This document shows, one piece after another, positions 875-21,068 of a stretch of 32,741 nt of DNA (position 1 is its first letter; each line of letters opens with the position of its first letter). The notes beneath the pieces were generated by a model. The model saw only the letters and a list, made by a program, of their open reading frames with translations. It made no database searches and had not been told where the DNA came from. The position numbers were made by a program, and so were the translations under genes. Location of the stretch: the NCBI GenBank assembly GCA_030530315.1, contig JAUMVG010000041.1, forward strand, positions 1 through 32,741, written 5' to 3'. Source of the stretch: Clostridia bacterium (GTDB taxonomy: Bacteria; Bacillota; Clostridia; Christensenellales; Aristaeellaceae).

Positions 875-2254
875 TCACAGCTTCAGGAACGCCCGGTAGC
901 CCTTGTAGGCCTCCCACAGGTCGGCCTTGGAGATGACCTCCCAGGGCGCGTGCATGGACAGCACCGGCACGCCGCAGTCGATCACGTTCATGGCGTACTT
1001 CGCGCACAGCCAGGCGATGGTCCCGCCGCCGCCGACATCCACCTTGCCCAGCTCGCTGGTCTGCCAGCACACCCCGGCCTCGTCCATCACCCGGCGGACG
1101 ACGCCCATGTACTCGGCGTTGGCGTCGCTGGCGCCGCTCTTGCCCCGGGAGCCGGTGTACTTGTTGAAGCACACGCCCAGGTTCAGCATGGCGGCGTTCT
1201 TCTTCTCAAACACGCCGGAATAGCTGGGGTCGTAGCCCGCGCTGACGTCGCTGGACAGCATGCGGCTGTTCTGCAGCGCCCGGCGGACCGCCAGCTCCCG
1301 CTCGTCTCCCAGCAGGGCGGAGAGCTCCGCCACGGTGTTCTCGAAGAAGTGAGAATTCATGCCGGAGGCGCCCATGCTGCCGATCTCCTCCTTGTCGGTC
1401 AGCACCGCGCACAGGGTGTGCTCCGGGGTGCCCTCGTGATCCACCACGGCCATCAGGCTGGGATAGGCGCAGACACGGTCGTCGTGGCCGTAGCCCAGGA
1501 TCATGCTGCGGTCCAGGCCCATGTCCCGGGACTTTCCGGCGGGCACGGCCTCCAGCTCCGCGGAGATGAAGTCCTCCTCGCCCACGCCGTAGTCCCGCTC
1601 CAGCACCTTCAGCAGCGCCGCCTTCACGGGGTCCTTCTCCTCGTCCGGGTCCGGCGCGCTGGCGATCAGGATGTTCAGTGCCTCGGCGTCGATGAACTTC
1701 GAGGCGGTCTTGCTCATCTGGTCCTGGGCCAGGTGGGGCAGCAGGTCGGAGATGCACAGCACCGGGTCGTCCTCCCCCTCGCCGATGGCCACGGTCACGA
1801 CGCCGCCGTCCTTCTTCACGATCACGCCGTGCAGCGCCAGGGGCATCGCCAGCCACTGATACTTCTTGATGCCGCCGTAGTAGTGGGTATCCAGATAGGC
1901 CAGGCCGTCGTCCTCGAACACCGGGTTCTGCTTGATGTCGATGCGGGGAGAGTCGATGTGCGCCCCCAGGATGTTCATGCCCGTCTCCAGGGGCCGGGCG
2001 CCCACCACGAAGGCCATGAAGCTCTTGTTCATCCACTTGCGGTACACCCGGTCGCCCGCCTTCAGCTTTTCGCCAGAGGCGATCAGCGCGTCCATGTCCC
2101 GGAAGCCCGCCGCCGCGCAGATCTTCTCCGCGCTGGCCGCAGCCTCGCGCTCGGTCTTGGAGGCGTCCAGGTAGCCCTTGTAGGCCTCCGCGAAGGCGTT
2201 CAGCTTTGCCCGCTCGTTTTCGTCATATTGTTTCCATGCGTTTTTGCGATACAT
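875..2254 (-). CDS. M18 family zinc aminopeptidase
   Basis: The 459-residue product is a cytoplasmic M18 metallo-aminopeptidase, a family that removes N-terminal residues (often acidic or neutral) from peptides and forms large dodecameric cages. Expected metal and catalytic residues are visible: H99 in GAHIDSPR, D258/D259 in YGHDDR, the glutamate pair E289-E290 in TDKEEIGS, probably D336, and H435 in SMHAPWE near the C-terminus. VGGGGT at about 408 is also typical. Length matches the family (430-480). The ATG at 2254 is preceded by CAGGAGG at good spacing. It is transcribed alone from a promoter at 2281-2309. No clear terminator was found; the PilT remnant lies downstream. Confidence 0.95.
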   Translation of the reverse strand: MYRKNAWKQYDENERAKLNAFAEAYKGYLDASKTEREAAASAEKICAAAGFRDMDALIASGEKLKAGDRVYRKWMNKSFMAFVVGARPLETGMNILGAHIDSPRIDIKQNPVFEDDGLAYLDTHYYGGIKKYQWLAMPLALHGVIVKKDGGVVTVAIGEGEDDPVLCISDLLPHLAQDQMSKTASKFIDAEALNILIASAPDPDEEKDPVKAALLKVLERDYGVGEEDFISAELEAVPAGKSRDMGLDRSMILGYGHDDRVCAYPSLMAVVDHEGTPEHTLCAVLTDKEEIGSMGASGMNSHFFENTVAELSALLGDERELAVRRALQNSRMLSSDVSAGYDPSYSGVFEKKNAAMLNLGVCFNKYTGSRGKSGASDANAEYMGVVRRVMDEAGVCWQTSELGKVDVGGGGTIAWLCAKYAMNVIDCGVPVLSMHAPWEVISKADLWEAYKGYRAFLKL

Positions 2255-2280
2255 AATTTCAACCTCCTGTCACTGCAGAC

Positions 2281-2309
2281 AGTATAGCACAAAACGGCGG
2301 CGAAGTCAC
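2281..2309 (-). promoter_or_regulatory. Promoter of the M18 aminopeptidase gene
   Basis: On the minus strand, -10 TATACT (2281-2286), a 17-base spacer and a weak -35 GTGACT (2304-2309). The -35 and spacer lie inside the terminator hairpin of the upstream transporter operon, so the two signals overlap. Confidence 0.5.
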
Positions 2310-2333
2310 CACCTTTGGGTGCATTCGCCGCCG
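2291..2333 (-). terminator. Intrinsic terminator of the sugar ABC operon
   Basis: A GC-rich stem of ten perfect base pairs (2295-2304 with 2324-2333; CGGCGGCGAA/TTCGCCGCCG) is followed on the minus strand by TTTTGTG. It lies about 30 bases after the stop of the last gene of the operon. Confidence 0.8.
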
Positions 2334-2365
2334 CGACGTTCAATTTGTCCCTGTTTGCCTGAGGG

Positions 2366-4024
2366 CTATCTCCTCTTCCGCGCCTTCACCTTTTCGGAGA
2401 CGGCGTGGGCACCCAGCAGCAGCCAGATGACCACCAGGGCGATCAGCAGCACCCGGGAGCCCGTGGGCAGCGGCCCGAGGTCTCCGCCGGAGGTCATGCC
2501 GCTGCGGCCGGAGGACTGGTTCAGCCGGTACAGCGAGGCGATGTCCTCGTACAGCTTGTCGATGTACGCGTCGTCCACGGTCTGCTTGCGGCGCACCGAC
2601 TTGGTGACGTTTTCGATCAGCTGGCCCGCGGCGTCGCGCAGCGAAGCGGAGCCGTTGAACACCGGCGTGGTGAAGGTGTTCTCGGTGTTGTCCAGCAGCA
2701 GCCTCGCGGCCTGCAGCTTCACCGGGTAGTGCAGCTCGTCCCCCGCGTCGCTGTTCAGGTACTCCTGATAGGTGTCGGAATCCTGGGCCTTGGAGGTGAC
2801 GGGCACATAGCCCTCCGTCTGGGAATAGGCGATCTGCACGTCGTTGGTCAGCAGGTACTGGGTGAACAGCCAGCTTGCCAGCACCTCCTGGGGATCCGCC
2901 TTGTTGAACACGCACACGCTGGGGCCCTGGCTGATCATCTGCAGGTGCTCCGGGTCGAACTGGGGCACCGGCCGCACGGCGGTCTCGAACTGCACGATGT
3001 TCTCCGGGCTGATGTCCAGCAGCGGCGCGTCGCTGCCCATCCAGGTGGCGCCGGCGGTGGAGTCCACCGCGAAGATGCACTGGCCCGCGTTCAGGAAGTT
3101 GGCCGGATAGCTGGAGATCTTGAAGGTGGAGAAGGCGCCGGACTTGGCGTGCCTGGCGATCTCGAACAGCAGCTCCTTGGTGGTGTCGTTCAGGATCAGG
3201 ATCTCCCCCGCCTCGGTGGAATAGCCCGCGTCCAGCTGGCGCAGCATCTGGATCATCATGTTGTCGGTGCTCTTATAGATGAAGGGAATCATGACCTTCT
3301 GGCCGTTGACGGCAAAGACGCCGTTCGCGTCCTTGGCCGTGGCGGCCTCGGAGACCTCCCAGACGAAGTCCCAAGTCAGCACGTCCGGCAGCTCGTAGCC
3401 CAGGGCTTCCACGTAGGTCTTGTTGATGTACAGCGCCTCGGTGGAGCGCATGTAGGGCAGCGCGTAGCTGTGGCCGCTGAAGGCGCATTCCTCCATGAAC
3501 TGGGGGATCACCTCGTCCCGGGTGGGGCCGTCGAAGAGGAGCTCGCTGCCCCCCAGGCCATAGCGGGCGTCGTCGATCAGCCCGTCCAGCGGCACCACCA
3601 CGTTGTCGCCGGTCATATAGGTGGCGATGTGGTCCGGATAGGTGATGCACACGTTGGGCGTGGTGTCGGTGGAGATGTTGGTGATCACGTCGTTGTAGAT
3701 GCGGCTGTAGTCCGTGTACAACTTCATCGTCACCGTGACGTTGGGGTACAGGGCCTCGAAGCCCGCGATGGCCTTCTTGTAAATCTCCGTCTGGGTCTTG
3801 TTGGTGTCATTCTTCGCCCAGAAGGTGATCTCGTATCTGCGGGAAGTGTCGAACGCCTCCGGCACCTCGAACCCTGCCCTGCCACGGCTGCCGTGGCACC
3901 CGGACAAAGTGAGGGCCAGAAGGACGAGGACCAGCAGCAGGGTTGGCAGCCTATGAGAAAGGGCCATTTTCGGTGCTTCACGCCTTTCTCTCTTAACTCT
4001 TAACTCTTCGCTCTCCACTCTCAT
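2366..4024 (-). CDS. Sugar ABC transporter substrate-binding lipoprotein with C-terminal membrane helix
   Basis: A family 1 extracellular solute-binding protein, last gene of a four-gene importer operon. The mature part begins with RYEITFWAKND and an early IYKKAIAGFEALYPNVTV segment, as in sugar-binding proteins. The start at 4024 overlaps the permease stop (ATGA) and has GGGGAGGG about eight bases upstream. It gives 552 residues, with a charged 20-residue leader before the lipoprotein signal (lipobox LSGC, C43). The alternative ATG at 3967 (533 residues) gives a normal short signal peptide but only a weak ribosome site; the intervening DNA is low-complexity (repeats of GAGTTAA). Unusually, the C-terminus carries a hydrophobic segment (about 525-539) followed by KVKARKRR, like a stop-transfer anchor. 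Confidence 0.88.
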   Translation of the reverse strand: MRVESEELRVKRERREAPKMALSHRLPTLLLVLVLLALTLSGCHGSRGRAGFEVPEAFDTSRRYEITFWAKNDTNKTQTEIYKKAIAGFEALYPNVTVTMKLYTDYSRIYNDVITNISTDTTPNVCITYPDHIATYMTGDNVVVPLDGLIDDARYGLGGSELLFDGPTRDEVIPQFMEECAFSGHSYALPYMRSTEALYINKTYVEALGYELPDVLTWDFVWEVSEAATAKDANGVFAVNGQKVMIPFIYKSTDNMMIQMLRQLDAGYSTEAGEILILNDTTKELLFEIARHAKSGAFSTFKISSYPANFLNAGQCIFAVDSTAGATWMGSDAPLLDISPENIVQFETAVRPVPQFDPEHLQMISQGPSVCVFNKADPQEVLASWLFTQYLLTNDVQIAYSQTEGYVPVTSKAQDSDTYQEYLNSDAGDELHYPVKLQAARLLLDNTENTFTTPVFNGSASLRDAAGQLIENVTKSVRRKQTVDDAYIDKLYEDIASLYRLNQSSGRSGMTSGGDLGPLPTGSRVLLIALVVIWLLLGAHAVSEKVKARKRR

Positions 4025-4896
4025 CCCTTGATCCCTCCCCTCGACACGCCGGCCATGACCTTGTTGCGGAAGATCAGGAACAGCACGATCAGCGGCACGG
4101 AGATGACCACCACCGCCGCCATCATGGCGGGGATGTTCTCGCGGCCGAAGCCATTCTCGCGGATCTCCTGGATGCCGTTGGAGACCAGGAAATAGGCGGG
4201 ATCGTCGGTCACCAGGCGGGGCCAGACGTAGCTGTTCCAGCACTCGATGACCTTCAGGATGATGATCGTGATGATCGTCGGCCGGCAGATGGGCATCATC
4301 ACCCGGGTCAGATACTTCAGGTCGGTGGTGCCGTCCACCTTTGCGGCGTTGTACAGCTCGTCGGGAATCTGGGCGAAGTTCTCGCGAAGCAGGTAGATGT
4401 AAAACACGCTGGTCACCGACGGCAGGATCAGGCCCGCAAAGCTGTTGCGCAGCCCCCAGTTGGTGATGGTCTGGTAGTTGGTGATGATCACCAGCTCGTT
4501 GGGGATCATCATTAGCGCCAGGAACAATGAGAACACCAGGTTCTTGCCCTTGAACTCCAGCCGCGCGAAGGCGAAGGCCGCCGGCACGATGACCAGCATC
4601 ATCAGCCCGGTGGTAACCACGGTGAAGATGATGGAATTCAGGAAGTACCGGGCCAGCGGCACCTCGGAGAAGGCGTTCACGTAGTTCTGGAGCGTGGGCG
4701 TAAGGGTGAAGAAGGTGGGCACGTATTCCCCGTTGTAGGCGCTGTAGCTCTTGACGCTGGTCAGCAGCATCCAGTAGTAGGGAAACAGCACCATCAGCGC
4801 CCAGAAGGTCAGCAGCGCGTAGGTCACGGCGCGCACCGCCGTCCTGCGGGCGCGGGAGGCGCGCTCGATCCGGTCAAAATCATTTTGATTTGCCAT
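4021..4896 (-). CDS. Carbohydrate ABC transporter permease (MalG/UgpE type)
   Basis: The 291-residue inner-membrane permease has six predicted membrane segments, the usual MalG-type size. The cytoplasmic EAA loop that docks on the ATPase is ELYNAAKVDGTTDLKYLTRV followed by a proline. The N-terminal YYWMLLTSVK segment is also characteristic. The ATG at 4896 has AGGAGG nine bases upstream. It follows the partner permease by 13 bases and overlaps the binding-protein start by four. Substrate is not readable from the sequence; the class imports sugars or glycerol phosphates. Confidence 0.95.
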   Translation of the reverse strand: MANQNDFDRIERASRARRTAVRAVTYALLTFWALMVLFPYYWMLLTSVKSYSAYNGEYVPTFFTLTPTLQNYVNAFSEVPLARYFLNSIIFTVVTTGLMMLVIVPAAFAFARLEFKGKNLVFSLFLALMMIPNELVIITNYQTITNWGLRNSFAGLILPSVTSVFYIYLLRENFAQIPDELYNAAKVDGTTDLKYLTRVMMPICRPTIITIIILKVIECWNSYVWPRLVTDDPAYFLVSNGIQEIRENGFGRENIPAMMAAVVVISVPLIVLFLIFRNKVMAGVSRGGIKG

Positions 4897-4909
4897 TGAG
4901 TAACACCTC

Positions 4910-5812
4910 CTAATAATGTACGTTTTTCCTGCTGATCGACAGGTTGATCAGCGTGATGGTGAACACCACGGCGAACAGTATGATCGCCGCTGCCGAGGCG
5001 TAGGACGGATAGCCGCCGCTGTCTCCGTAAAGCATGTCGTAGACGTAGCCCACGATGGTGTTCATCTCCGCGGCGTTCAGGTTCGTGGTGAACAGGGCCA
5101 CCGCGTCGCTGTAGGCCTTGAAGGCGCCGATGAAGCCGGTGATGACCAGGTAGAAGATCATCGGGGAGATCATCGGCAGCGTGATCTTGCGGAAGGTGCG
5201 GAAGGCGGAGGTGCCGTCCACCTTGGCGGCATTGTAATAGTCCTGGTTCACGCTGGCCAGCGCGCTGGTGAGGATCAGCACCTTGAAGGGCATGACCACC
5301 CAGATGGTGTAGAAGCACAGCACGAACATCTTCGCCCAGTAGGGGCCGTCGATGAAGTCGATGGGGCCCTTGCCGAACCAGGCCAGTATCAGGTTCGCCA
5401 GGCCGTCGGTGTAGGCGGTCTTCTTGAACAGGATCATGAACACCAGGCCCACCGCCAGCGTGTTGGTCACGTAGGGCAGGAAGTAGACCGTTTGGTACAG
5501 CTTCTTCAGCGGCGTGATGCTGTTGAGCCCCACGGAAATCAGCAGCGCGATGACCGTGGACAGCGGCACCGTGATGATGACCAGGATGAAGGTGTTCTTC
5601 AGCGCCTGGAGGAAGTACGGGTCGTGGAGCACGTAGGAGTAGTTGTACAGGCCCACGCCGAAAGACGTCTGGGAGGCGGAGTTGTAGCCCTCCTCGAAGG
5701 AATAGATGAACACGTCGATCAGCGGGTAGACCATGAAGAAGCCCAGGAACAGTATCGCGGGCAGCAGGTAAAGCCAGCCCTTCAGGTTGTTGGTATCCTT
5801 CTTGCCCGCCAT
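4910..5812 (-). CDS. Sugar ABC transporter permease (UgpA/MalF type)
   Basis: A 300-residue membrane permease that would pair with the MalG-type protein encoded next. Six membrane segments are apparent, beginning with WLYLLPAILFLGFFMVYPL. The EAA loop is DYYNAAKVDGTSAFRTFRKI, with ITLPMISP after it. Length is normal for the short MalF/UgpA class without the large periplasmic loop. The start is one base away from the ATPase stop (TGA then ATG), with GGGGTGA upstream, so translation is probably coupled. Confidence 0.95.
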   Translation of the reverse strand: MAGKKDTNNLKGWLYLLPAILFLGFFMVYPLIDVFIYSFEEGYNSASQTSFGVGLYNYSYVLHDPYFLQALKNTFILVIITVPLSTVIALLISVGLNSITPLKKLYQTVYFLPYVTNTLAVGLVFMILFKKTAYTDGLANLILAWFGKGPIDFIDGPYWAKMFVLCFYTIWVVMPFKVLILTSALASVNQDYYNAAKVDGTSAFRTFRKITLPMISPMIFYLVITGFIGAFKAYSDAVALFTTNLNAAEMNTIVGYVYDMLYGDSGGYPSYASAAAIILFAVVFTITLINLSISRKNVHY

Positions 5813-5813
5813 G

Positions 5814-6938
<1,125 letters not shown>

Positions 6939-7110: not shown

Positions 7111-7139
7111 TTGACACTTTATGCAGTCTCTTCTATAAT
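7111..7139 (+). promoter_or_regulatory. Perfect-consensus sigma-A promoter of the DUF3798 importer operon
   Basis: TTGACA (7111-7116), a 17-base spacer and TATAAT (7134-7139), matching consensus at all twelve positions. Transcription should start near 7146, leaving a leader of about 87 bases. Confidence 0.9.
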
Positions 7140-7145
7140 TTATCT

Positions 7146-7232
7146 GTATTACCGCGCTAAACTGATATGAATGTTTTTGCGGCTTTTGCAAAAATAGTGC
7201 GGCTTTGCGCGGGAAAATAAGGAGGTAAAACC
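7146..7232 (+). promoter_or_regulatory. Structured 5' leader of the DUF3798 importer operon
   Basis: The leader can fold into an outer stem CCGCGC/GCGCGG (7152-7157 with 7207-7212) enclosing a hairpin TTTTTGC/GCAAAAA (7174-7180 with 7188-7194). The ribosome-binding site AAGGAGG follows at 7219-7225. It matches no riboswitch class that I recognise. The fold is a hand prediction. Confidence 0.4.
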
Positions 7233-8426
7233 ATGAAGAAACTGCTTTGCGCTCTGCTGGCTGCCCTGATGGTTCTGTCCATGGTGGTCGTCGCGTCCGC
7301 CGAGGAAGCGACCCTGGACTTCCACGTCGGCATCGTCACCGGCACCGTCTCCCAGTCTGAGGACGACCGCCGCGGCGCCGAGGCCTTCCAGGCCAAGTAC
7401 GGCGAGGACGTGGTCACCCTGGCCACCTATCCCGACAACTTCCCGGATGAGAAGGAAACCGTCGTGCAGACCATCGTGAACATGGCCGACGATCCGGACA
7501 TGAAGGCCGTCATCGTCAACCAGGGCGTGCCCGGCACCGCCGAGGCCTTCCGTCAGATCAAGGAGCGTCGCCCCGACATCCTGTGCATCTGCGGTGAGTC
7601 CCAGGAAGACCTGCCCGTGATCGCCGACGCCGCCGACCTGGTGGTCGTCAACGACTTCGTGTCCCGCGGCTATCTGATCATCAAGACCGCCGCCGACCTG
7701 GGCTGCAAGACCTTCGTTCACATCTCCTTCCCCCGCCACCTGGGCATCGAGTCCCTCAGCCGTCGTCTGGCGGTCATGAAGGAAGCGGGCAAGGAGCTGG
7801 GCGTTGAGATCGTCGAGGAGACCGCTCCCGACCCGACCAGCGACGTTGGCGTCGCCGGCGCGCAGCAGTTCATCCTCGAGAAGACCCCCGAGTGGGTTGC
7901 CAAGTACGGCACCGACTCCGCCTACTTCTGCACCAACGACGCTCACACCGAGCCCCTGCTGAAGCAGCTGCTGGAGTACGGCGGATACTTCATCGAGGCC
8001 GACCTGCCCTCCCCGCTGATGGGCTATCCGGGCGCTCTGGGCGTGGACCTGACCGATGCCAACGGCGACTTCCAGAAGATCCTGGAGACCGTTGAGAACG
8101 CTGTCGTCGAGAAGGGCGGCGCGGGCCGCTTCGGCACCTGGGCCTTCTCCTACGGCTACGCTTCTTCCTTCGCCCTGGCCGAGCACGCTGTGAACGTCAT
8201 CAACGGCGACAGCGAGCTGACCGAGCTGGACGACATCGCCGACGCCTTCGGCGAGGTTTCCAACGTTGACTGGTCCGGTGCCAACTACACCGACGCCACC
8301 ACCGGCGTGAAGACCGAAAACCTGTTCCTGGTCTATCAGGACACCTACATTATGGGCCGCGAGGGCGACAAGTTCATGCACACGCCCGATGTGGAGATCC
8401 CCGAGATGTACTACACCGTGAAGTAA
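7233..8426 (+). CDS. DUF3798-like periplasmic-type binding protein
   Basis: The 397-residue secreted protein has a signal peptide ending ASA (residues 21-23), probably cut by signal peptidase I; no lipobox cysteine is present. The mature part resembles DUF3798, a family with a periplasmic-binding fold near the BMP/ribose-binding proteins: an early HVGIVTGTVSQSEDD segment, then KAVIVNQGVPGT and YPGALGVDLTD. The family name is from memory. It heads an operon with an RbsA-type ATPase and two permeases, so it is very likely the substrate-capturing subunit. Substrate is unknown. AAGGAGG lies seven bases upstream of the ATG. A terminator follows (8450-8482), so this gene is probably made in excess over the rest of the operon. 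Confidence 0.85.
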   Translation: MKKLLCALLAALMVLSMVVVASAEEATLDFHVGIVTGTVSQSEDDRRGAEAFQAKYGEDVVTLATYPDNFPDEKETVVQTIVNMADDPDMKAVIVNQGVPGTAEAFRQIKERRPDILCICGESQEDLPVIADAADLVVVNDFVSRGYLIIKTAADLGCKTFVHISFPRHLGIESLSRRLAVMKEAGKELGVEIVEETAPDPTSDVGVAGAQQFILEKTPEWVAKYGTDSAYFCTNDAHTEPLLKQLLEYGGYFIEADLPSPLMGYPGALGVDLTDANGDFQKILETVENAVVEKGGAGRFGTWAFSYGYASSFALAEHAVNVINGDSELTELDDIADAFGEVSNVDWSGANYTDATTGVKTENLFLVYQDTYIMGREGDKFMHTPDVEIPEMYYTVK

Positions 8427-8449
8427 TCCCCACGGGATTGCCCACTGCC

Positions 8450-8482
8450 AGGGGGAGGAGCCGCTCCTCCCCCTCGGTTTTT
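8450..8482 (+). terminator. Attenuating terminator between binding protein and ATPase genes
   Basis: Ten perfect base pairs (AGGGGGAGGA/TCCTCCCCCT, 8450-8459 with 8465-8474), a GCCGC loop, then CGG and TTTTT. It is placed 24 bases after the binding-protein stop, where partial termination would set a high ratio of binding protein to membrane parts. Confidence 0.8.
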
Positions 8483-8498
8483 CGCAAAGGCGCGAAAG

Positions 8499-8599
8499 CG
8501 GTGAAGGATTAGGAATGCGAAATGAAGAAATCCAGGGTTTCCGCTCCTTCGTGAAGGGGGAACCCAAGGCTTTCACCGTTCATTCCCCATTCCTAATCC
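8499..8599. repeat. Nested inverted repeat in the operon spacer
   Basis: Outer arms GGATTAGGAATG (8506-8517) and CATTCCTAATCC (8588-8599) are perfect over 12 bases. A second pair CGGTGAA/TTCACCG (8499-8505 with 8572-8578) lies in register beside them. Inside, GGGTT/AACCC and CCTTC/GAAGG form a further hairpin (about 8535-8565). No gene is present. It could be a small mobile repeat or an mRNA-processing structure. Confidence 0.5.
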
Positions 8600-8666
8600 C
8601 TCATTCCCAATTTCCCATCTATCCCCCTCCCGCCGGGAGAGTTCAACAGAAATAAGGTAGATAGAC

Positions 8667-10250
8667 ATGAGCAATCAAGCCCCCTTGCTGGAACTGAAGA
8701 ACATCAAGAAGGACTTCTACGGCAACCAGGTCCTGACGGACATCAACCTGACCCTCCAGGAGGGCGAGGTGCTGGGCCTGGTGGGCGAAAACGGCGCGGG
8801 CAAGTCCACGCTGATGAAGATCCTGTTCGGCATGACCGAGATCCGGGACACCGGCGGCTACGGCGGCGACGTGCTGCTGAACGGCGAGAAGGTCAGCTTC
8901 AACTCCCCCTTTGACGCGCTGGGCGCGGGCATCGGCATGGTGCACCAGGAGTTTTCGCTGATCCCCGGCTTCACCGCCACGGAGAACATACTGCTCAACC
9001 GCGAGCCCCAGAAGAAGAGCGTGGTCTCCGAGGTGTTCGGCGAGCGCCTGAACACCCTGGACCGCAAGAAGATGGAGAGCCTCTCCGAAAACTCCATCGA
9101 CAAGATGGGCGTGCGCATCGACGGCGGCATGGCCATCTCCGACATGCCCGTGGGCCACAAGCAGTTCACCGAGATCGCCCGCGAGCTGTCCAAGGACCAG
9201 CTGAAGCTGCTGATCCTGGACGAGCCCACCGCCGTGCTGACGGAGCAGGAGGCGGCGGCGCTGCTGGATTCCATCCGCGGCATGTCCGCCCGGGGCATCG
9301 CGGTGATCTTCATCACCCACCGGCTCCAGGAGATCCTGAACGTGTGCAACAAGGTGGTGGTCATGCGCGACGGCGTCCTGGTGAAGGACGTGCCCGCCAG
9401 CGAGACCAGCATCCCGGAGATCACCCGCTGGATGGTGGGCCGCAGCGTGAACACCGACTCCCATTCCCACCGGCAGCCGCCCGAGGCCGACGCCATCATG
9501 TCGATCCGGCGCCTGTGGGTGGACATGCCCGGCGAGACCGTGCGCGATGTCGACCTGGATGTGCGCGAGGGCGAGATCCTCGGCATCGGCGGTTTGGCCG
9601 GCCAGGGCAAGCTGGGCATCCCCAACGGCGTCATGGGCCTGTACCCCGCCGGCGGTTCCGTCGTGTTCGACGGCAAGGAGATCCCGCTGAACCAGCCCCG
9701 GCAGTGCCTGGACGCGCACCTGGCCTTCGTGTCGGAGGACCGGCGCGGCGTGGGCCTGCTGCTGGACGAGACCCTGGAGTGGAACATCGCCTTCCCCGCC
9801 ATGCAGATCCACGACAAGTTCCTGAAGCCCCTGCTGGGCGGGCTGATCAAGTGGCGCGACGAAAAGGCCATCGGCGAGGTCACGCGCAAGTACATCGACG
9901 AGCTGCAGATCAAGTGCACCTCCTCCAAGCAGAAGGCCAAGCAGCTCTCCGGCGGCAACCAGCAGAAGGTGTGCCTGGCCAAGGCCTTCGCCCTGGAGCC
10001 CAGGTTCCTGTTCGTCTCCGAGCCCACCCGGGGCATCGACGTCGGCGCGAAGGCGCTGGTGCTAGAGGCGCTGAAGAAGTTCAACCGCGAAAGCGGCATC
10101 ACCATCGTCATGATCTCCTCGGAGCTGGAGGAGCTGCGCCAGGTCTGCGACCGCATCGCCATCGTCTCCGGCGGCAGGATCGCGGGCATACTGCCCGCCA
10201 GCGAATCCAGCGAGGCGTTCGGCGCGCTGATGGTCAGCTCGGTGGTTTAA
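8667..10250 (+). CDS. RbsA-type double ABC ATPase of the DUF3798 importer
   Basis: The 527-residue protein has two fused nucleotide-binding domains, as in ribose and nucleoside importers. Domain 1 has Walker A GENGAGKST (40-48), Q-loop MVHQEF, a divergent signature MPVGHKQFTEIA (160-171), and Walker B LLILDEPT. Domain 2 has a degenerate Walker A GLAGQGKLG (309-317), a good signature LSGGNQQKVCLA (427-438), and an altered Walker B FLFVSEPTRGID, with serine where aspartate is usual. Domain asymmetry is normal in this class. ATG at 8667 has a modest AAGG upstream. The first permease starts 16 bases after its stop. Confidence 0.93.
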   Translation: MSNQAPLLELKNIKKDFYGNQVLTDINLTLQEGEVLGLVGENGAGKSTLMKILFGMTEIRDTGGYGGDVLLNGEKVSFNSPFDALGAGIGMVHQEFSLIPGFTATENILLNREPQKKSVVSEVFGERLNTLDRKKMESLSENSIDKMGVRIDGGMAISDMPVGHKQFTEIARELSKDQLKLLILDEPTAVLTEQEAAALLDSIRGMSARGIAVIFITHRLQEILNVCNKVVVMRDGVLVKDVPASETSIPEITRWMVGRSVNTDSHSHRQPPEADAIMSIRRLWVDMPGETVRDVDLDVREGEILGIGGLAGQGKLGIPNGVMGLYPAGGSVVFDGKEIPLNQPRQCLDAHLAFVSEDRRGVGLLLDETLEWNIAFPAMQIHDKFLKPLLGGLIKWRDEKAIGEVTRKYIDELQIKCTSSKQKAKQLSGGNQQKVCLAKAFALEPRFLFVSEPTRGIDVGAKALVLEALKKFNRESGITIVMISSELEELRQVCDRIAIVSGGRIAGILPASESSEAFGALMVSSVV

Positions 10251-10266
10251 GGAAGGTGACAGCAAC

Positions 10267-11343
10267 ATGAGCGAAATTACCAACAATGCCAATCCCACGC
10301 CTCTGGAGCGGCTTCAGAGCGCGTTCAGGAGCTTCGGCCTGCCCCGCATGATCATCGCGGGCATGCTGCTGGTGCTGCTGATTGCCGCGCCCTTCGTCGG
10401 CGCGAATTTCTGGATGCAGATCACCAACGTCATCAACCGCTTCACCTGGAACGGCGTGCTGGTGCTGGCGATGGTCCCCATGGTGCACTCCGGCTGCGGC
10501 CTGAACTTCGGCCTGCCGCTGGGCATCATCTCCGGCCTGCTGGGCGCCACCCTGTCGCTGGAGCTGGGCTTCACCGGCCCGATGAGCTTCGTGATGGCCA
10601 TCGTGCTCTCCACCCCCTTCGCCCTGGTCCTCGGCGCGGGCTACGGCTGGCTGCTGAACCGCATCAAGGGCGGTGAGATGATGATCGCCACCTACGTGGG
10701 CTTCTCCTCCGTGTCCTTCATGTGCATGATGTGGCTGCTGCTGCCCTACCACAAGGCGGACATGGTGTGGGGCTACGCGGGCAAGGGCCTGCGCACCACC
10801 ATCTCCCTGGAGGGCTACTACGACCAGGTGCTGGCCAAGTTCCTCCAGATCCGTCTGGGCGATCTGGTCATCCCCACCGGCTCGATCCTGTTCTTCGCGC
10901 TGCTGGCCTTCCTGATGTGGGCCTTCCTGCACACCAAGACCGGCACCGCCATGACGGCCGTGGGCTCCAACGCCACCTTTGCCAAGGCGGCGGGCATCAA
11001 CGTCGATAAGATCCGCCTGCTGTCCGTGGTCATGAGCACCTGGCTGGGCGCCATCGGCATCCTGGTCTACCAGCAGGGCTTCGGCTTCATCCAGCTGTAC
11101 ATGGCGCCGTTCAACATGGCGCTGCCCGCGGTGTCCGCCATACTGATCGGCGGCGCCAGCGTGAACAAGGCCACCATCACCAACGTGGTCATCGGCACGA
11201 TCCTGTTCCAGGGCATCGTCACCATGACCCCCACCGTCATGAACAACATGATCCACATGGACATCAGCGAGGTGCTGCGCATGGTCGTGTCCAACGGCAT
11301 GATCCTCTACGCCCTGACCCGCAAGACGGAGGTGACCCGCTAA
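10267..11343 (+). CDS. ABC permease of the DUF3798 importer, subunit 1 (BPD_transp_2 type)
   Basis: A 358-residue polytopic membrane protein of the branched-chain amino acid/ribose permease superfamily, with about eight to ten hydrophobic segments. GLNFGLPLGIISGLLGA and the late TKTGTAMTAVGSNATFAKAA segment (compare the ribose-permease TxxGRxxxAxGxN motif) support this. AAGGAAGGTGA precedes the ATG. Its stop overlaps the next start (TAATG), so the two permeases are coupled and probably form a heterodimer. Confidence 0.92.
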   Translation: MSEITNNANPTPLERLQSAFRSFGLPRMIIAGMLLVLLIAAPFVGANFWMQITNVINRFTWNGVLVLAMVPMVHSGCGLNFGLPLGIISGLLGATLSLELGFTGPMSFVMAIVLSTPFALVLGAGYGWLLNRIKGGEMMIATYVGFSSVSFMCMMWLLLPYHKADMVWGYAGKGLRTTISLEGYYDQVLAKFLQIRLGDLVIPTGSILFFALLAFLMWAFLHTKTGTAMTAVGSNATFAKAAGINVDKIRLLSVVMSTWLGAIGILVYQQGFGFIQLYMAPFNMALPAVSAILIGGASVNKATITNVVIGTILFQGIVTMTPTVMNNMIHMDISEVLRMVVSNGMILYALTRKTEVTR

Positions 11344-12467
11344 TGAACAGCAAGAATTCCTCCGCGGGCAAGAAGGTGCTGAACTTCCTGGGCAGCAACA
11401 GCGTGCCGATCATGTTCATCATCATCGTGGGCATCTGCATCCCGCTGTCCGGCTTCTCCCCGGTGTTCCTGCTCAACGAGATCATCACCCGCATGGGCCG
11501 CAACATCTTCCTGATCCTCAGCCTGCTGATTCCCATCATGGCCGGCATGGGCCTGAACTTCGGCATGACGCTGGGCGCCATGGCCGGTGAGATCGCGCTG
11601 ATCTTCGTCAGCGACTGGCAGATCTGGGGCATCCCCGGCGTGGTGCTGGCCTGCATACTGTCCATCCCCATCAGCGTGCTGCTGGGCTGGATGTGCGGCA
11701 AGATCCTGAACGCCTCCAAGGGCCGCGAAATGGTGACCAGCTACATCATCAGCTATTTCACCAACGGCCTGTACCAGCTGCTGGTGCTGTACTTCATGGG
11801 CGCCATCATCCCCATCATCCACAGCTCCATCAAGCTGCCCCGCGGCTACGGCGTGCGCCAGACCGTGGGCCTGCTGAACATGCGCCAGAGTCTGGACAAC
11901 GCCCTGGCCCTGCGCATCGGCGGCGTGAAGATCCCGGTGCTGACGTTCATCATCATCGCCGTGATGTGCCTGGTGATCGTGTGGTTCCGCCGCACCAAGC
12001 TGGGACAGGACATGCGCGCCGTGGGGCAGGACATGGACGTTGCCCGTGACGCCGGCATCAACGTGGAGCGCACCCGCATCATCTCCATCATCATCTCCAC
12101 GGTGCTGGCAGGCTTCGGCATGATCATCTACCTGCAAAACATGGGCGACATGGCCACCTACTCCGCCCACAGCCAGATCGGCATGTTCTGCATCGCCGCG
12201 CTGCTGGTCGGCGGCGCCTCCGTGGACCGCGCCTCCATCGGCAACGTGTTCCTGGGCGTGGTGCTGTTCCACCTGATGTTCATCCTCGCGCCCAAGGCGG
12301 GCGGCGTCATCACCGGCGACGAAATGATCGGCGAATACTTCCGCGTGTTCGTGTCCTACGGCGTCATCACCGTGGCGCTGGTGATGTATGAGACCAAGAA
12401 GCGCAGGGCCAAGGCGGGCATGGGCGCCCAGCTGGAGGCCGCGCAGCGGGAGGAGGGCCAGCGATGA
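11343..12467 (+). CDS. ABC permease of the DUF3798 importer, subunit 2 (BPD_transp_2 type)
   Basis: A 374-residue membrane permease, paralogous to the one before it. The shared pattern includes GMGLNFGMTLGAMAGEIAL and RRTKLGQDMRAVGQDMDVA, the counterpart of the TxxGxxxxAxGxN motif. The C-terminal ~25 residues are charged and cytoplasmic. The start overlaps the previous stop, and its own stop overlaps the next start (ATGA). The tight coupling makes the small downstream protein part of the same system. Confidence 0.92.
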   Translation: MNSKNSSAGKKVLNFLGSNSVPIMFIIIVGICIPLSGFSPVFLLNEIITRMGRNIFLILSLLIPIMAGMGLNFGMTLGAMAGEIALIFVSDWQIWGIPGVVLACILSIPISVLLGWMCGKILNASKGREMVTSYIISYFTNGLYQLLVLYFMGAIIPIIHSSIKLPRGYGVRQTVGLLNMRQSLDNALALRIGGVKIPVLTFIIIAVMCLVIVWFRRTKLGQDMRAVGQDMDVARDAGINVERTRIISIIISTVLAGFGMIIYLQNMGDMATYSAHSQIGMFCIAALLVGGASVDRASIGNVFLGVVLFHLMFILAPKAGGVITGDEMIGEYFRVFVSYGVITVALVMYETKKRRAKAGMGAQLEAAQREEGQR

Positions 12468-12952
12468 AGAAGAGAAGAATCCTGTTCTGCGCGGGCACGG
12501 TCCTGCTGCTGATCGCCATCGCCGCGCTGATGATGGTCATCGGCCGCGGCCACACCATCTACTTTGACAACAAGAACCTGGAGGTGGACGGCCAGAAGTA
12601 CGAGGCCGTGCGCCGCATCAACGTGAACGTGAACGGCGAGCAGGTCGCCAAGCTCTCCAAGAAGGAGCGCGGCATGGCCACCTGCATGGGCCAGAAGTTC
12701 AAGTTCGACATCGAGGTCATCCGCGAAAAGGGCGGCGACTCGGAGTTCTACACCTTCAACATCGAGATCCCCTACGGCATGGACGGCCTCGTGGTGAACC
12801 TGCCCGGCATGATCGCCGAGCTCCCCTTCGAGGTCTGCACCGAGGAATTCATCCCGGCGCCCACCGTGGAGGAGGAGGAAGAGGAGCTTCCGGGCGAGGG
12901 CGACGAGCTGGACGACGGCCTGGACGACTTCGACGTGGGCGGCGACCTGTAA
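12464..12952 (+). CDS. Small membrane-anchored accessory protein of the DUF3798 importer
   Basis: The 162-residue product has an N-terminal membrane helix (about 6-27, after KKRRIL), then a soluble, probably external domain of about 110 residues, and ends in a very acidic tail (EEEEEE near 136, then D/E/G-rich). No cysteine lipid anchor is present. I do not recognise the fold; it may be a DUF6672-type protein, but I cannot verify that. The ATG is set by GAGGAGG and overlaps the permease stop, so it is translated with the importer. A partner role, such as binding-protein docking or metal binding through the tail, is inference. The operon terminator follows at once. Confidence 0.85.
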   Translation: MKKRRILFCAGTVLLLIAIAALMMVIGRGHTIYFDNKNLEVDGQKYEAVRRINVNVNGEQVAKLSKKERGMATCMGQKFKFDIEVIREKGGDSEFYTFNIEIPYGMDGLVVNLPGMIAELPFEVCTEEFIPAPTVEEEEEELPGEGDELDDGLDDFDVGGDL

Positions 12953-14875: not shown

Positions 14876-15889
14876 GTGCGCAAGGGCATATGCGTTGCGG
14901 GCAACATGATTGTGGACATACTCTATCCCATCGAGGGCTGGCCCAACCAGGGCGAGCTGGTGCACATCAAGGACGGCATTTCACGGGCCACCGGCGGCGC
15001 GGTGTGCAATGTGATCATGGACCTGGCGACCCTGGACCCCCAGCTGCCGCTGCAGGCCATGGGCAAGATCGGCAAGGATGCCGAGGGCGATTTGATCCTG
15101 GAAAAGCTGGACGCCTTCGCCAACATCGACACCTCCAACGTGCTGCAGGAGGGCATCTCCGCGCTGACGCTGGTGATGAGCGACGTGAAGGCCGGACAGC
15201 GCACCTTCTTCACCTATCCCGGCGCGAACGGCACCTTTGACGAGTCCTGCGTCGACTGGAACCGGGTCAATGCCGACATCTTCCACATCGGCTACATACT
15301 GCTGCTGAACGCGCTGGACGCGCCGGACGAGGCATACGGGTCGAAGATGGCGCGGCTGCTCCACCACGCCCAGCAGCACGGGCTGAAGACCTCCATCGAC
15401 GTGGTCAGCGAGACCAGCGACCGCTTCACGCGGCTGGTGCCCCCGGCGATGAAGTACGCCGACTACTGCATCATCAACGAGTACGAGGCCCAGATGACCA
15501 CCGGCATCCCCCTGCGGGACGATTCCGGCAATCTGATCCGCGAGAACCTGCCCGAGGCGCTGGCCGCCATGAAGCGGATGGGCGTCTCCACCTGGGCGGT
15601 GATCCACTGCCCGGAGGGCGGCTACGGCCTGGACGAGGCCGGGCAGTACGTGGCCCGGGCGAGCCTGGCGCTGCCGGAGGGCTACATCCAGGGCAGCGTG
15701 GGCGCGGGCGACGCCTTCTGCGCCGGCGTGCTCTACGGCGCGGAGCAGCGGTTCTCCCTGGCCGACGCCATCGACCTGGGCGTCGCCTCCGCGGCCGCCG
15801 CGCTCAGCGCGCCCGGGGCCACCGAGGGCATGCGCCCGAAGGACGAGGTCCTCGGGCTTCTCAAAAAATACGACAGAAGACAGGAGTAA
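14876..15889 (+). CDS. PfkB/ribokinase-family carbohydrate kinase
   Basis: A 337-residue cytoplasmic sugar or nucleoside kinase. The N-terminal ribokinase pattern is GNMIVDILYP and the substrate-binding glycine pair is in ATGGAVCN (38-45). The C-terminal signature GSVGAGDAFCAG (273-284) carries the catalytic base D279 and the anion hole. The start codon is GTG, fixed by GGAGGTGA five bases upstream. The phosphate acceptor cannot be told from sequence; the divergent UxaB-like gene hints at sugar-acid metabolism, but the two have separate control regions. The PAP2 gene follows after eight bases. Confidence 0.93.
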   Translation: MRKGICVAGNMIVDILYPIEGWPNQGELVHIKDGISRATGGAVCNVIMDLATLDPQLPLQAMGKIGKDAEGDLILEKLDAFANIDTSNVLQEGISALTLVMSDVKAGQRTFFTYPGANGTFDESCVDWNRVNADIFHIGYILLLNALDAPDEAYGSKMARLLHHAQQHGLKTSIDVVSETSDRFTRLVPPAMKYADYCIINEYEAQMTTGIPLRDDSGNLIRENLPEALAAMKRMGVSTWAVIHCPEGGYGLDEAGQYVARASLALPEGYIQGSVGAGDAFCAGVLYGAEQRFSLADAIDLGVASAAAALSAPGATEGMRPKDEVLGLLKKYDRRQE

Positions 15890-17496: not shown

Positions 17497-18264
17497 TCAC
17501 AGTCGCGAAAAGTAGGTCACATACAGCCTTCCGTTCTTCGGATGGCGCTGCACGGCGCAGTCCACCTCGTAGACCTCCCGGATCAGGTCCTCGGTGATCA
17601 CGTCCTCAGTCCTGCCGTGGGCCACGATCCGCCCCTCCTTCAGCACGTACACGGTGTCGCAATACAGCAGCGTCAGGTTCAGATCGTGCAGCGCCGCCAG
17701 CACGCCCACTCCCAGGGACTTCACCACATCCATGATCTGGATCTGGTACTTGATGTCCAGGTGGTTGGTGGGCTCATCCAGGATCAGCAGCTCCACCTGC
17801 TGCGCCAGCGTCCGCGCCAGCAGTATGCGCTGCTTCTCGCCGCCGGAGAGCGTATTGTAGTTGCGGTCCCGGAAGGGCAGCATGTCCACCCGGCGCAGCG
17901 CCTCCTCGGCGATGCGATAGTCCTCCTCCGTGTCCCGGGCAAAGGCCGTCTTGTGGGGCGCGCGCCCCATGAGCACAACCTCCTCCACGGTGAAGTCGAA
18001 GTTCATCACCGTGAACTGGCTGATGACCCCCATGCGCCGGGCAGTATCCCGGTAGCTCAGCCGGTTGATGTCCACATCGTCCAGCGTGACCAGCCCTGCC
18101 GAGGGCTTCAGCACGCGATAGATGCTCTTGAGCAGCGTGGTCTTGCCGCTGCCGTTGGGCCCCAGCAGCCCGACGAACTGCCGGTCCTTCACCTCCAGCG
18201 AGACCTGCTTCACGATCTCCCGGCCCGACAGCGTGACGGATATGTCCTTTGCGTTCAGATTCAT
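17497..18264 (-). CDS. btuD: Cobalamin-type ABC importer ATPase (BtuD/FecE-like)
   Basis: The 255-residue ATPase has Walker A GPNGSGKTT (35-43), signature LSGGEKQRILLARTL, Walker B VELLILDEPTNHLD and the H-loop in ALHDLN. It belongs to the FepC/BtuD group that powers type II importers for siderophores, haem and cobalamin; the riboswitch upstream favours cobalamin. The start at 18264 has GAGGTGA five bases upstream and lies ten bases after the permease stop. A longer frame from 18294 would overlap the permease and lacks a site. Confidence 0.93.
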   Translation of the reverse strand: MNLNAKDISVTLSGREIVKQVSLEVKDRQFVGLLGPNGSGKTTLLKSIYRVLKPSAGLVTLDDVDINRLSYRDTARRMGVISQFTVMNFDFTVEEVVLMGRAPHKTAFARDTEEDYRIAEEALRRVDMLPFRDRNYNTLSGGEKQRILLARTLAQQVELLILDEPTNHLDIKYQIQIMDVVKSLGVGVLAALHDLNLTLLYCDTVYVLKEGRIVAHGRTEDVITEDLIREVYEVDCAVQRHPKNGRLYVTYFSRL

Positions 18265-18274
18265 CCGCGTCACC

Positions 18275-19384
18275 TCATCTTCCGCCGAAGCCATAGGACT
18301 TGCGCACCATCATGTACACGAAGATCGGCGCGCCGATCACCGAGGTGATCACGCCGATGGGGATCTCCGTATTGTGGATCAGTACCCGGGCGAGCACGTC
18401 CGCCCAGATCAGGAAAATGCCGCCCGCCGCCGCCGTCAGCGGAAGAAGGAACCGATGGTCGGAGCCCACGAATCCCCTCACGATGTGAGGGATCATCAGC
18501 CCCACAAAGCCGACGATGCCGCAGGTGCACACCGCCACCGCCGACAGGAACGAGGTGACCACCATGTACACCCGCCGCCGCGCCGCCAGGTTCACGCCCA
18601 GGGTGATGGCGGCCTCGTCTCCCAGCAGCATGGTGTTCAGGGTGCGCGCCTGGGTGAGGTAGAACGTCAGTCCCAACAGCATGCAGGCCCCGGGCAATCC
18701 CAGCCGCTCCCATTTGGCGGAGACCATGCTGCCCAGCAGCCAGTAGGAGACCTCCCGCATGTTCTCGGCATTTCTGCCCAGATAGACCATCATGTTGGTG
18801 AACGCGCTGCACAGGCTGCCGATCACGCAGCCCGCCAGCACCAGCTTGGCGGAGGTGACCCGGCCTCCGCCCACGTGGGCCAGCGCCATCACCAGCGCCA
18901 TGGCTCCCAGCGCGCCGGCAAAGGCCCAGAAGGCCGTTCCCATGCCCGAAAGCCACCCGGTGAACACCGCGGAAGCGCCGATCATGATGGAGAAGGTCGC
19001 CCCCAGGGACGCCCCGGAGGAGATGCCCAGCAGGTAGGGATCCGCCAGCGGGTTTTCCACCGACGCCTGTATCACCACGCCGCAGGTAGCCAGCAGCACG
19101 CCGATGATCGCTCCCATGAGCACCCGGGGCATGCGCACGTTCCAGACGATCTCGTACATCGTGCCCTTGGTCAGAAAGTCGATGTCGCCGATGCGGATGC
19201 CGGTCTCGATGCCGCCGATCCTGAAGTGGGTCGCCTGATACAACACGATGCGGTACACGTCGCCCAGGGGAATCTTCACCGCGCCGATGGTCACCGCAAG
19301 CAGTATGGACAGCAGCAGCAGGCCGATGAAGACGACGATCAGCATGCCCAGCAGGGCGTGTCGGCGCTTGATGTGGGAATTCAC
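18275..19384 (-). CDS. btuC: Cobalamin-type ABC importer permease (BtuC/FecCD family)
   Basis: A 369-residue FecCD-family permease with about ten membrane helices. Recognisable blocks are RMPRVLMGAIIGVLLATCG, then NPLADPYLLGISSGASLGA (the classic NPLA-P-LGxSxGA motif) and the C-terminal GLMIPHIVRGFVGSDHR. It is slightly longer than the usual 330-350, because of a longer loop before the RMPRVL block. The start is GTG at 19384, set by CGGAGG seven bases upstream. It works as a homodimer with the ATPase encoded next. Confidence 0.94.
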   Translation of the reverse strand: MNSHIKRRHALLGMLIVVFIGLLLLSILLAVTIGAVKIPLGDVYRIVLYQATHFRIGGIETGIRIGDIDFLTKGTMYEIVWNVRMPRVLMGAIIGVLLATCGVVIQASVENPLADPYLLGISSGASLGATFSIMIGASAVFTGWLSGMGTAFWAFAGALGAMALVMALAHVGGGRVTSAKLVLAGCVIGSLCSAFTNMMVYLGRNAENMREVSYWLLGSMVSAKWERLGLPGACMLLGLTFYLTQARTLNTMLLGDEAAITLGVNLAARRRVYMVVTSFLSAVAVCTCGIVGFVGLMIPHIVRGFVGSDHRFLLPLTAAAGGIFLIWADVLARVLIHNTEIPIGVITSVIGAPIFVYMMVRKSYGFGGR

Positions 19385-19540
19385 GGGTCAACCTCCGTTT
19401 TGTCTTTCAGTAATGATTGTCGACGTGTTCCTGTGGAACCCGCCGACCCGGAAAACGTTCCGTTTTCCTAATCATACACGGGTCAATGATCGCAACGGGG
19501 AACAGGCGTGCCTGTTCCCCGTCGCCTGTTCCACCAGTGC
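19385..19540 (-). other. Hairpin-rich spacer between binding protein and permease genes
   Basis: Contains a perfect 13-pair hairpin with a two-base loop (19495-19507 with 19510-19522; arm ACGGGGAACAGGC) and a perfect eight-pair hairpin GGAAAACG/CGTTTTCC (19450-19468), itself enclosed by GACCCG/CGGGTC. No T-run follows on the minus strand. Protection of the upstream binding-protein mRNA is a likely role. Confidence 0.55.
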
Positions 19541-20521
19541 TTATTCGCCGTACATGAAGTCGAACATCGCCTTCACGGAGGGCACCATGCGGATGCCGCC
19601 GCCATAGACATCGGTCAGGTTCACGGCCATGACCTTGCCGTTGACCACCGCGGGCACCTCGGCCAGGGTGGCGTTCTCCATGACGGTGGCGATGGCCTTG
19701 GCCTGGTTCTCCTCGGCGGAGACGCCCTCCTCGTCCATGTAGTCCACGATGATGACCTCGGGGTTCAGGTTCACGATGTCCTCGACGGACAGGTCGCCGC
19801 CCTCGGGCAGGGCGTACTCAGCGCCGGCGGAGACCACCAGGGAGCCGGTCAGCGTGTCGCTGCCCCAGCAATAGAAGGTGCCGTCGTAGGGCTCCACGAT
19901 GATGGCGGTCAGGGGCTTCTCCAGGGAGGACACCTTGGCTTTGATCTCCTCCAGCATGGCCCGGGCGTCGGCGATGTAGGCGTCGGTGACTTCCTCAATG
20001 TCAAAGATCGCGCCGATGTCGGCGAAGTCCGCCAGCACGGCCTCGAGGTCGCGCACCTCTGCGGTGTTGTTGGAGCAGCGCAGGATCATGGTGCCGGTGC
20101 CCCGCTCGTTCCACTCGGCCACGTCGCCCAGGCTGTCCTCTGCGAAGGCGCTGCGCCAGCCGAAGATGAAGTCCGGCTCCAGGGCCAGCACGACCTCCTT
20201 GGAGGGATAGCCCTTCACGGTCAGCTCCTTGCCGGCCTCCACCAGCGCTTCATACTGGGGCAGCAGGTCCTCGCGGATAGTGCCGTCCAGGTAGGCGGTG
20301 CCGGCGATGACATCGTCCAGGCCCAGGTACAGCAGCATCTCGGTCTGGGTCTGGTTGGTGCAGACCACCTTTTCGGGCCTGTGGTCGAAGGTGACCTCGA
20401 CGGGCTCCTTGGCGTAATTGTAGCTGGAGATGGTCACGGGATAGTGGCTGTCCTCCGCCACGGCAAAGGCGCACAGGCACAGCGCGAGCGCAAGGCTCAG
20501 GGCAACGATCAGCTTTTTCAT
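19541..20521 (-). CDS. btuF: Cobalamin-type ABC importer substrate-binding protein (BtuF-like)
   Basis: A 326-residue class III (FepB/BtuF) binding protein. The signal peptide ends AVA (20-22) before EDSHYP and has no lipobox, although two cysteines lie within it. The mature part starts with the usual edge strand (VTFDHRPEKVVCTNQTQTEML), has the LEPDFIFGW block at about 112-120, and NPEVIIVDYMD in the C-terminal lobe. GAGAGGT lies upstream of the ATG. It is the first gene behind the cobalamin riboswitch, which is the main reason to prefer corrinoid over siderophore as ligand. Confidence 0.92.
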   Translation of the reverse strand: MKKLIVALSLALALCLCAFAVAEDSHYPVTISSYNYAKEPVEVTFDHRPEKVVCTNQTQTEMLLYLGLDDVIAGTAYLDGTIREDLLPQYEALVEAGKELTVKGYPSKEVVLALEPDFIFGWRSAFAEDSLGDVAEWNERGTGTMILRCSNNTAEVRDLEAVLADFADIGAIFDIEEVTDAYIADARAMLEEIKAKVSSLEKPLTAIIVEPYDGTFYCWGSDTLTGSLVVSAGAEYALPEGGDLSVEDIVNLNPEVIIVDYMDEEGVSAEENQAKAIATVMENATLAEVPAVVNGKVMAVNLTDVYGGGIRMVPSVKAMFDFMYGE

Positions 20522-20608
20522 GGTTTTACCTCTCTCTTTTTTGATCTATTTCATGATGATGGCTCATCAGAAACGCGGCCGGATGGATCAGGCGCCGGAG
20601 TTCCAGAC

Positions 20609-20650
20609 AAAAAACAGGACACGCCGGATCCAAACTCCGGACATGTCCTG
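20609..20650 (-). terminator. Intrinsic terminator of the cobalamin riboswitch leader
   Basis: On the minus strand a nine-pair stem (CAGGACATG/CGTGTCCTG) with an inner CCGGA/TCCGG extension is followed by six T. It lies between the aptamer and the first gene, as expected for control by termination when cobalamin is bound. Confidence 0.85.
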
Positions 20651-20870
20651 CATACCGCTTCACAGCCCGCCGCCAAAGGAGAACAAGCCTCCCCCTTTGC
20701 GGCATGCGCGCAGCCGCAGCGGCACGCCGCCTCCGGCGGCTTCCGCTGCGCTTGGGACATATCTCTCTTTAGTCCGAAGATGAAGGGACCCGCCCACGGC
20801 CGGTCCGTCCCCCAGTGGGAACCGCGCGCCCCGGCAATGCCCCTGGGACGCCGCGCCTCGATATGCGTTC
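20651..20870 (-). other. Long leader segment between aptamer and terminator
   Basis: About 220 bases of transcribed, GC-rich leader. No clear antiterminator was found by eye. A 69-codon open frame (20551-20760) begins here and encodes a peptide with eight cysteines, but its ribosome site (AGAGAG, five bases before ATG) is weak and its end crosses the terminator. I do not call it a gene. Confidence 0.5.
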
Positions 20871-21040
20871 TTTACAGGCAGGTCTTCTGACTCGGCTTCA
20901 TCGCCCCGGCCCCTTCTCAATCCGAAGATCAATGGTCTCGGCCTCGGCTCGACCTCACAGCAGCGGTCCTGTCGGAGATTTTCACTCCGTTCCCTATTCT
21001 CCCGTCCCCTCCCCAAGGAAGGCGGACGGGCACCTGCAAA
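20871..21040 (-). promoter_or_regulatory. Cobalamin riboswitch
   Basis: On the minus strand the conserved core is present: GGGAACGGAGTG, then AAAATC, then ACCGCTGCTGTGA (the B12-box region), and near the 3' end AGTCAGAAGACCTGCC. The closing stem P1 pairs 21033-21040 with 20871-20878 (TTTGCAGG with CCTGTAAA, one G-U). It reads adenosyl- or other cobalamin and controls the importer operon downstream. Identification is by recalled consensus, without a covariance model. Confidence 0.92.
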
Positions 21041-21068
21041 TACCCGTTGTTATTCAATTTTCACGTCG

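Follow-up and report, generated by a model that had tools for sequence, protein, structure and literature searches.

The window analyzed here, a stretch of 32,741 nucleotides from a Clostridia bacterium (contig JAUMVG010000041.1), carries on its plus strand a five-gene operon (7233-12952) for an ATP-binding cassette (ABC) importer whose binding protein belongs to the Pfam family DUF3798 (PF12683). The cluster is an ABC importer ordinary in build, of a family uncharacterized in substance. Judged by the gene neighborhoods of its relatives, it quite possibly takes up short peptides or similar amino-acid conjugates: M20 and M24 peptidase genes recur beside the operon, which favors a ligand with an amide bond to be cleaved intracellularly (dipeptides, tripeptides or N-acyl amino acids) and does not pinpoint it further. 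The new points are this peptidase association, an accessory protein (DUF6672) restricted to one clade, and a switch of pocket residues between clades.

Peptidase genes beside related operons

A single scan of reference genomes returned 349 relatives; the 80 best loci (65-96% identical) were kept, and in these the order of the five genes is constant as far as each contig extends. In wider samples, DUF3798 was found in 68 of 398 genomes across the window's phylum and in 14 of 149 across the phylum of a spirochaete (13 over the cut-off); the window's own genome has one match each to DUF3798 and DUF6672. In a midpoint-rooted tree of binding proteins thinned to 80, two main groups appear: group A, which carries DUF6672, comprises the window, the best 80 loci and most spirochaete loci, and group B comprises most of the loci sampled elsewhere in the phylum. 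Neighborhoods were counted at 168 loci, leaving out L138, L139 and L154-L156 (no binding-protein profile match) and L157 (no called genes). Loci L197-L202 stand outside all counts; they belong to group B by score, no DUF6672 match was seen in them, and at L199 the gene order is 2-3-4-1, followed downstream by an M24 gene (107 bits).

Among same-strand genes directly beside the operon, 17 of 203 encode M20 or M24 peptidases, as against 1 of 1161 other genes, and that lone gene is itself the second member of a tandem pair adjoining an operon; the opposite-strand neighbors include none (0/80). Loci L141-L196, collected after the peptidase lead had been noted, gave 6 of 63 adjacent genes and none of 307 others. 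PepD occurs at five group-A loci, PepQ-like M24 peptidases at nine group-B loci and other M20 peptidases at three group-B loci, one locus having both. Because those of the loci concerned that are in the tree lie on separate branches, and both the class of peptidase and the side on which it lies differ, the association arose repeatedly. In one genus, at L181 and L182 and also at L123, a DUF3798 gene without transporter genes alongside has an M24 gene directly upstream; the L123 contig ends after the binding-protein gene.

Two observations weigh against a peptide-like substrate. The window, its nearest relatives and 152 of the 168 loci in all have no peptidase neighbor, and Opp/Dpp-type binding proteins are also present in every genome tested (60/60, of 68). 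The idea that the DUF3798 importer replaces Opp/Dpp was rejected, since both kinds coexist in those 60 genomes.

Alternative substrates and the pocket switch

The initial annotation named sugars and nucleosides as natural candidates. An importer of this kind, with a CUT2-like ATPase and permeases and a ribose/BMP-type binding protein, would feed a kinase such as PfkB (14876-15889); the ATPase is most similar to those of xylose, multiple-sugar and ribose importers, the surroundings include PfkB and tagaturonate-reductase-like genes, and sugar binders are among the structural neighbors. We nevertheless regard a sugar or nucleoside as an unlikely substrate. No sugar equivalog cut-off of NCBIfam is reached, the best ATPase score being 385 bits where 699 are needed for xylose (among the best 25 of 194 ATPase matches) and the permeases scoring at most 34.7 bits against 386. 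The mannitol-dehydrogenase-like gene runs in the opposite direction, and the window's sugar genes beside the operon recur at none of the other survey loci, neither that gene nor PfkB being matched there (E 1e-8); by eye, no sugar-like gene is found among the families operonic in two or more loci, and it is peptidases that recur instead. It is likewise doubtful that the importer carries free amino acids or a signal molecule, its peptidase neighbors being just part of amino-acid scavenging: an Rfam scan of the window, 20 clade-A loci and 15 others (of 169) found no riboswitch or T-box directly 5' of the operon at gathering scores, and no recurring signal gene was seen by eye.

A metal or metal chelate is hinted at by a set of residues in the binding protein. 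Positions 236/238/257/258/263 of the binding protein are clade-specific, reading D/H/D/L/M in 88 of 90 clade-A proteins and D/E/D/L/M in the other two, while at the equivalent positions 66 of 71 clade-B proteins have C/M/C/C followed by H (61) or Q (5). Of the five clade-B proteins that depart from this, two are those of L127 and L184, and the other three are spirochaete proteins that stand alone (L152 twice, L153) and that the binding-protein tree places beside group A; these counts exclude four proteins (L112, L136, two of L135) with scores of 200 bits or below. Both variable stretches come after beta strands, and the switch hints at a bound metal, which would be held by Asp/His/Asp in the window's clade and by Cys/Met/Cys/Cys/His in its sister. 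In one genus (L114, L174), moreover, a gene identified by eye as a ZupT-like zinc transporter follows the operon. Against this, a disulfide in clade B would also explain part of the pattern, and by eye metal genes are operonic in one genus at most, peptidase neighbors being far commoner. Conserved residues as a whole are not significantly enriched after strand ends (20 of 46, 14.9 expected, p 0.12). A metal substrate as such seems improbable to us, and a long shot would be the import of metal-bound peptides or peptide metallophores, in which the residue switch would coincide with the gain of the acidic-tailed DUF6672 and adjacent metallopeptidases would process the peptide inside.

Operon layout, the DUF6672 protein and transcription

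All five open reading frames are found where the initial annotation placed them, with a third-position G+C of 0.89-0.96, in the order binding protein, double ATPase, permease 1, permease 2 and a small protein with one transmembrane helix. Pfam assigns the parts much as they had been described. The solute-binding protein (7233-8426, plus strand, as are the other four; 397 amino acids) matches PF12683 with 398 bits over the whole model (1-271 of 271; cut-off 24.6), which bears out the proposed DUF3798 membership. The Bmp family (PF02608) is not among its Pfam matches, which at E up to 1 are only PF12683, a weak Peripla_BP_3 and CheX. The fused ATPase of RbsA/MglA type (8667-10250) has two ABC_tran stretches; of its nucleotide sites one is canonical and the other degenerate (Walker A GENGAGKS at 40, LSGGNQ at 427, and a second Walker A, GLAGQGK, without S/T). 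Permease 1 (10267-11343) and permease 2 (11343-12467) are both BPD_transp_2 proteins, with 61.6 and 74.7 bits; their genes overlap by 1 base at 11343, and that of permease 2 overlaps the DUF6672 gene, starting at 12464, by 4 bases, as the initial annotation had it for the last three genes.

The binding protein has a signal peptide whose end, read by eye, is ..VVASA before EE, and a strict lipobox pattern gave no match in it. Its description as non-lipidated therefore stands for the window's protein and fails as a feature of the system, the pattern being matched in 28 of 90 clade-A proteins as against 33 of 78 others (it misses truncated starts and unusual boxes). DUF6672 was considered as a stand-in for a missing lipid anchor, and this was rejected because 20 of the 28 clade-A proteins with a lipobox have DUF6672 in view and 45 of the 78 in the other group have no lipobox in operons without DUF6672.

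The small protein (12464-12952), treated earlier as nameless, is a member of DUF6672 (PF20377; 172.8 bits, cut-off 24.3). It has a transmembrane helix at 2-26, a beta-sandwich at about 29-128 and an acidic tail of net charge -15 (model pLDDT 86), which agrees with its description as a small membrane protein with an acidic tail; the basic N-terminus predicts an extracytoplasmic sandwich. A fold like that of the extracellular domain of PepT is a tentative candidate for it, and Foldseek gave no match at E < 0.001. Of the best 80 loci 61 show the protein, the remaining 19 lying on contigs that break off within the operon. By clade, 69 of 70 readable clade-A operons carry it (those of L036, L037, L059 and L077 counted as present from the best-80 survey) and none of 57 readable clade-B operons does. 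The single clade-A operon without it is L142; in L143 it sits one gene later. When 249 genomes were searched with PF20377, the window's own genome alone scored above the cut-off and one more scored below it; since this agrees with the 0/57, we read the absence from clade B as real, though a very diverged copy would escape. Given the sharp contrast between the groups, DUF6672 was probably gained once or lost once and lies outside the core machine. The initial annotation, which took it as almost surely a working part, was right that it is a real part of this operon and wrong if it is meant as a general one; absence from most homologous operons, which was to have undone the claim of novelty, is found in one clade, with presence throughout the other.

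A sigma-70-type promoter, TTGACA-17-TATAAT (7111-7139, plus strand), precedes the operon and matches the consensus at 12 of 12 positions, as noted earlier. The match is not due to chance, because, with the window counted, 9 of 13 sequences carry a 12/12 site (spacer 16 or 17) 5' of the binding-protein gene and the other four have 9-11/12. A gap of 240 bases separates the binding-protein gene from the ATPase gene, and in it lies a terminator-like hairpin (8450-8474, plus strand) with an 11-pair stem, a loop of 3 and a T-rich tail. In relatives the first 70 bases of this gap are often structured, 127 of the 153 that were folded giving a z below -2 (simple shuffles; window z = -3.3). Transcription of the five genes thus need not be equal: the hairpin probably lowers that of the genes 3' of it, and the frequency of structured gaps suggests that the binding protein is produced in excess relative to the membrane parts.

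Two close relatives have a Clostridiales-1 RNA (RF01699) in this gap (L032:2513-2678, 90 bits; L034:2364-2528, 88.8 bits), which looks like a local insertion, since a profile built from the two detects it in none of the other gaps tested. Other Rfam matches at the scanned loci are tRNA genes, two opposite-strand T-boxes (L120) and a downstream purine riboswitch (L164). The tRNA genes lie inside 6 of 15 scanned group-B or spirochaete loci (L104, L127, L159, L160, L164, L189), and those of L104 and L189 are 5' of the operon on its strand. Longer DUF3798 proteins, with open frames of about 500-550 amino acids where listed, occur at L130, L131, L133, L134, L190 and L191; their extra N-terminal stretch may resemble a copper-amine-oxidase-like N domain. 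L112 and L135 have several DUF3798 genes near one another, some broken, and L152 has two without an adjoining importer, one with an internal stop.

Elsewhere in the window, a Peripla_BP_2, FecCD and ABC_tran importer on the minus strand (17497-21052), with a cobalamin riboswitch upstream (RF00174, 107 bits, 20860-21052), is a probable vitamin B12 uptake operon. A divergent maltose-type ABC importer with an M18 aminopeptidase gene occupies 875-6938 (minus strand); its binding protein at 2366 has an uncertain start and a lipobox by eye, and relatives of that binding protein and of one permease adjoin the DUF3798 operon at L006.

Proposed mechanism and relation to known importers

From the sequence and fold of its parts, the system would work as a type-I binding-protein-dependent ABC importer. 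The exported DUF3798 protein would catch a small ligand and pass it to the permease heterodimer, which the fused double ATPase, with its one working ATP site, would power. The ligand would most likely be a short peptide or a peptide-like amino-acid conjugate (a dipeptide, an Xaa-Pro dipeptide or an N-acyl amino acid), to be cleaved once imported by cytosolic M20/M24 hydrolases such as those encoded beside the relatives' operons. DUF6672 would be a clade-specific membrane-anchored subunit, its sandwich and acidic tail outside the membrane next to the permease, where it may aid docking of the binding protein or keep ligand or metal near the gate.

With the CUT2 sugar importers (RbsABC, MglABC, XylFGH) the system shares a type-I binding protein, a fused double ATPase with one degenerate site and BPD_transp_2 permeases; it differs from them in its DUF3798 binding protein, its two different permeases and its lack of recurrent sugar genes. 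BMP/PnrA-type and Rfu importers have a like general layout of binding protein, RbsA-type ATPase and two permeases, but here the binding protein is of PF12683, without a PF02608 match, and there is the extra DUF6672 subunit. The Clostridium difficile protein 3qi7, labeled a "putative transcriptional regulator", lacks in alignment the S-F-x-R-H motif conserved at 165-169 of the binding protein. With Opp/Dpp peptide importers only the proposed substrate class is in common, their binding proteins belonging to PF00496, a family unrelated to DUF3798.

The literature searched, in which subscription journals are poorly covered, bears out the earlier statement that no substrate has been assigned: in the portions of papers available there, DUF3798 appears as a bare label with no ligand named, and the search found no mention of DUF6672, of 3QI7, or of "CUT2", "ABC transporter" and "dipeptidase" jointly. 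In the sections available, PF12683 is listed among solute-binding profiles with no ligand given (PMC9602780); Fusobacterium FN1590, which carries the DUF3798 label, is reported to be upregulated on airway epithelium and is described as a putative virulence lipoprotein (PMC12077211); and a Treponema pallidum DUF3798 gene is annotated as a pseudogene, yet included in a list of proteome-supported annotation errors (PMC10600179).

Both the residue switch in the pocket and the restriction of DUF6672 to one clade lend themselves to direct and cheap tests. If peptide import holds true, this would be, to our knowledge, the first peptide importer built on a CUT2-like ATPase and BPD_transp_2 permeases.
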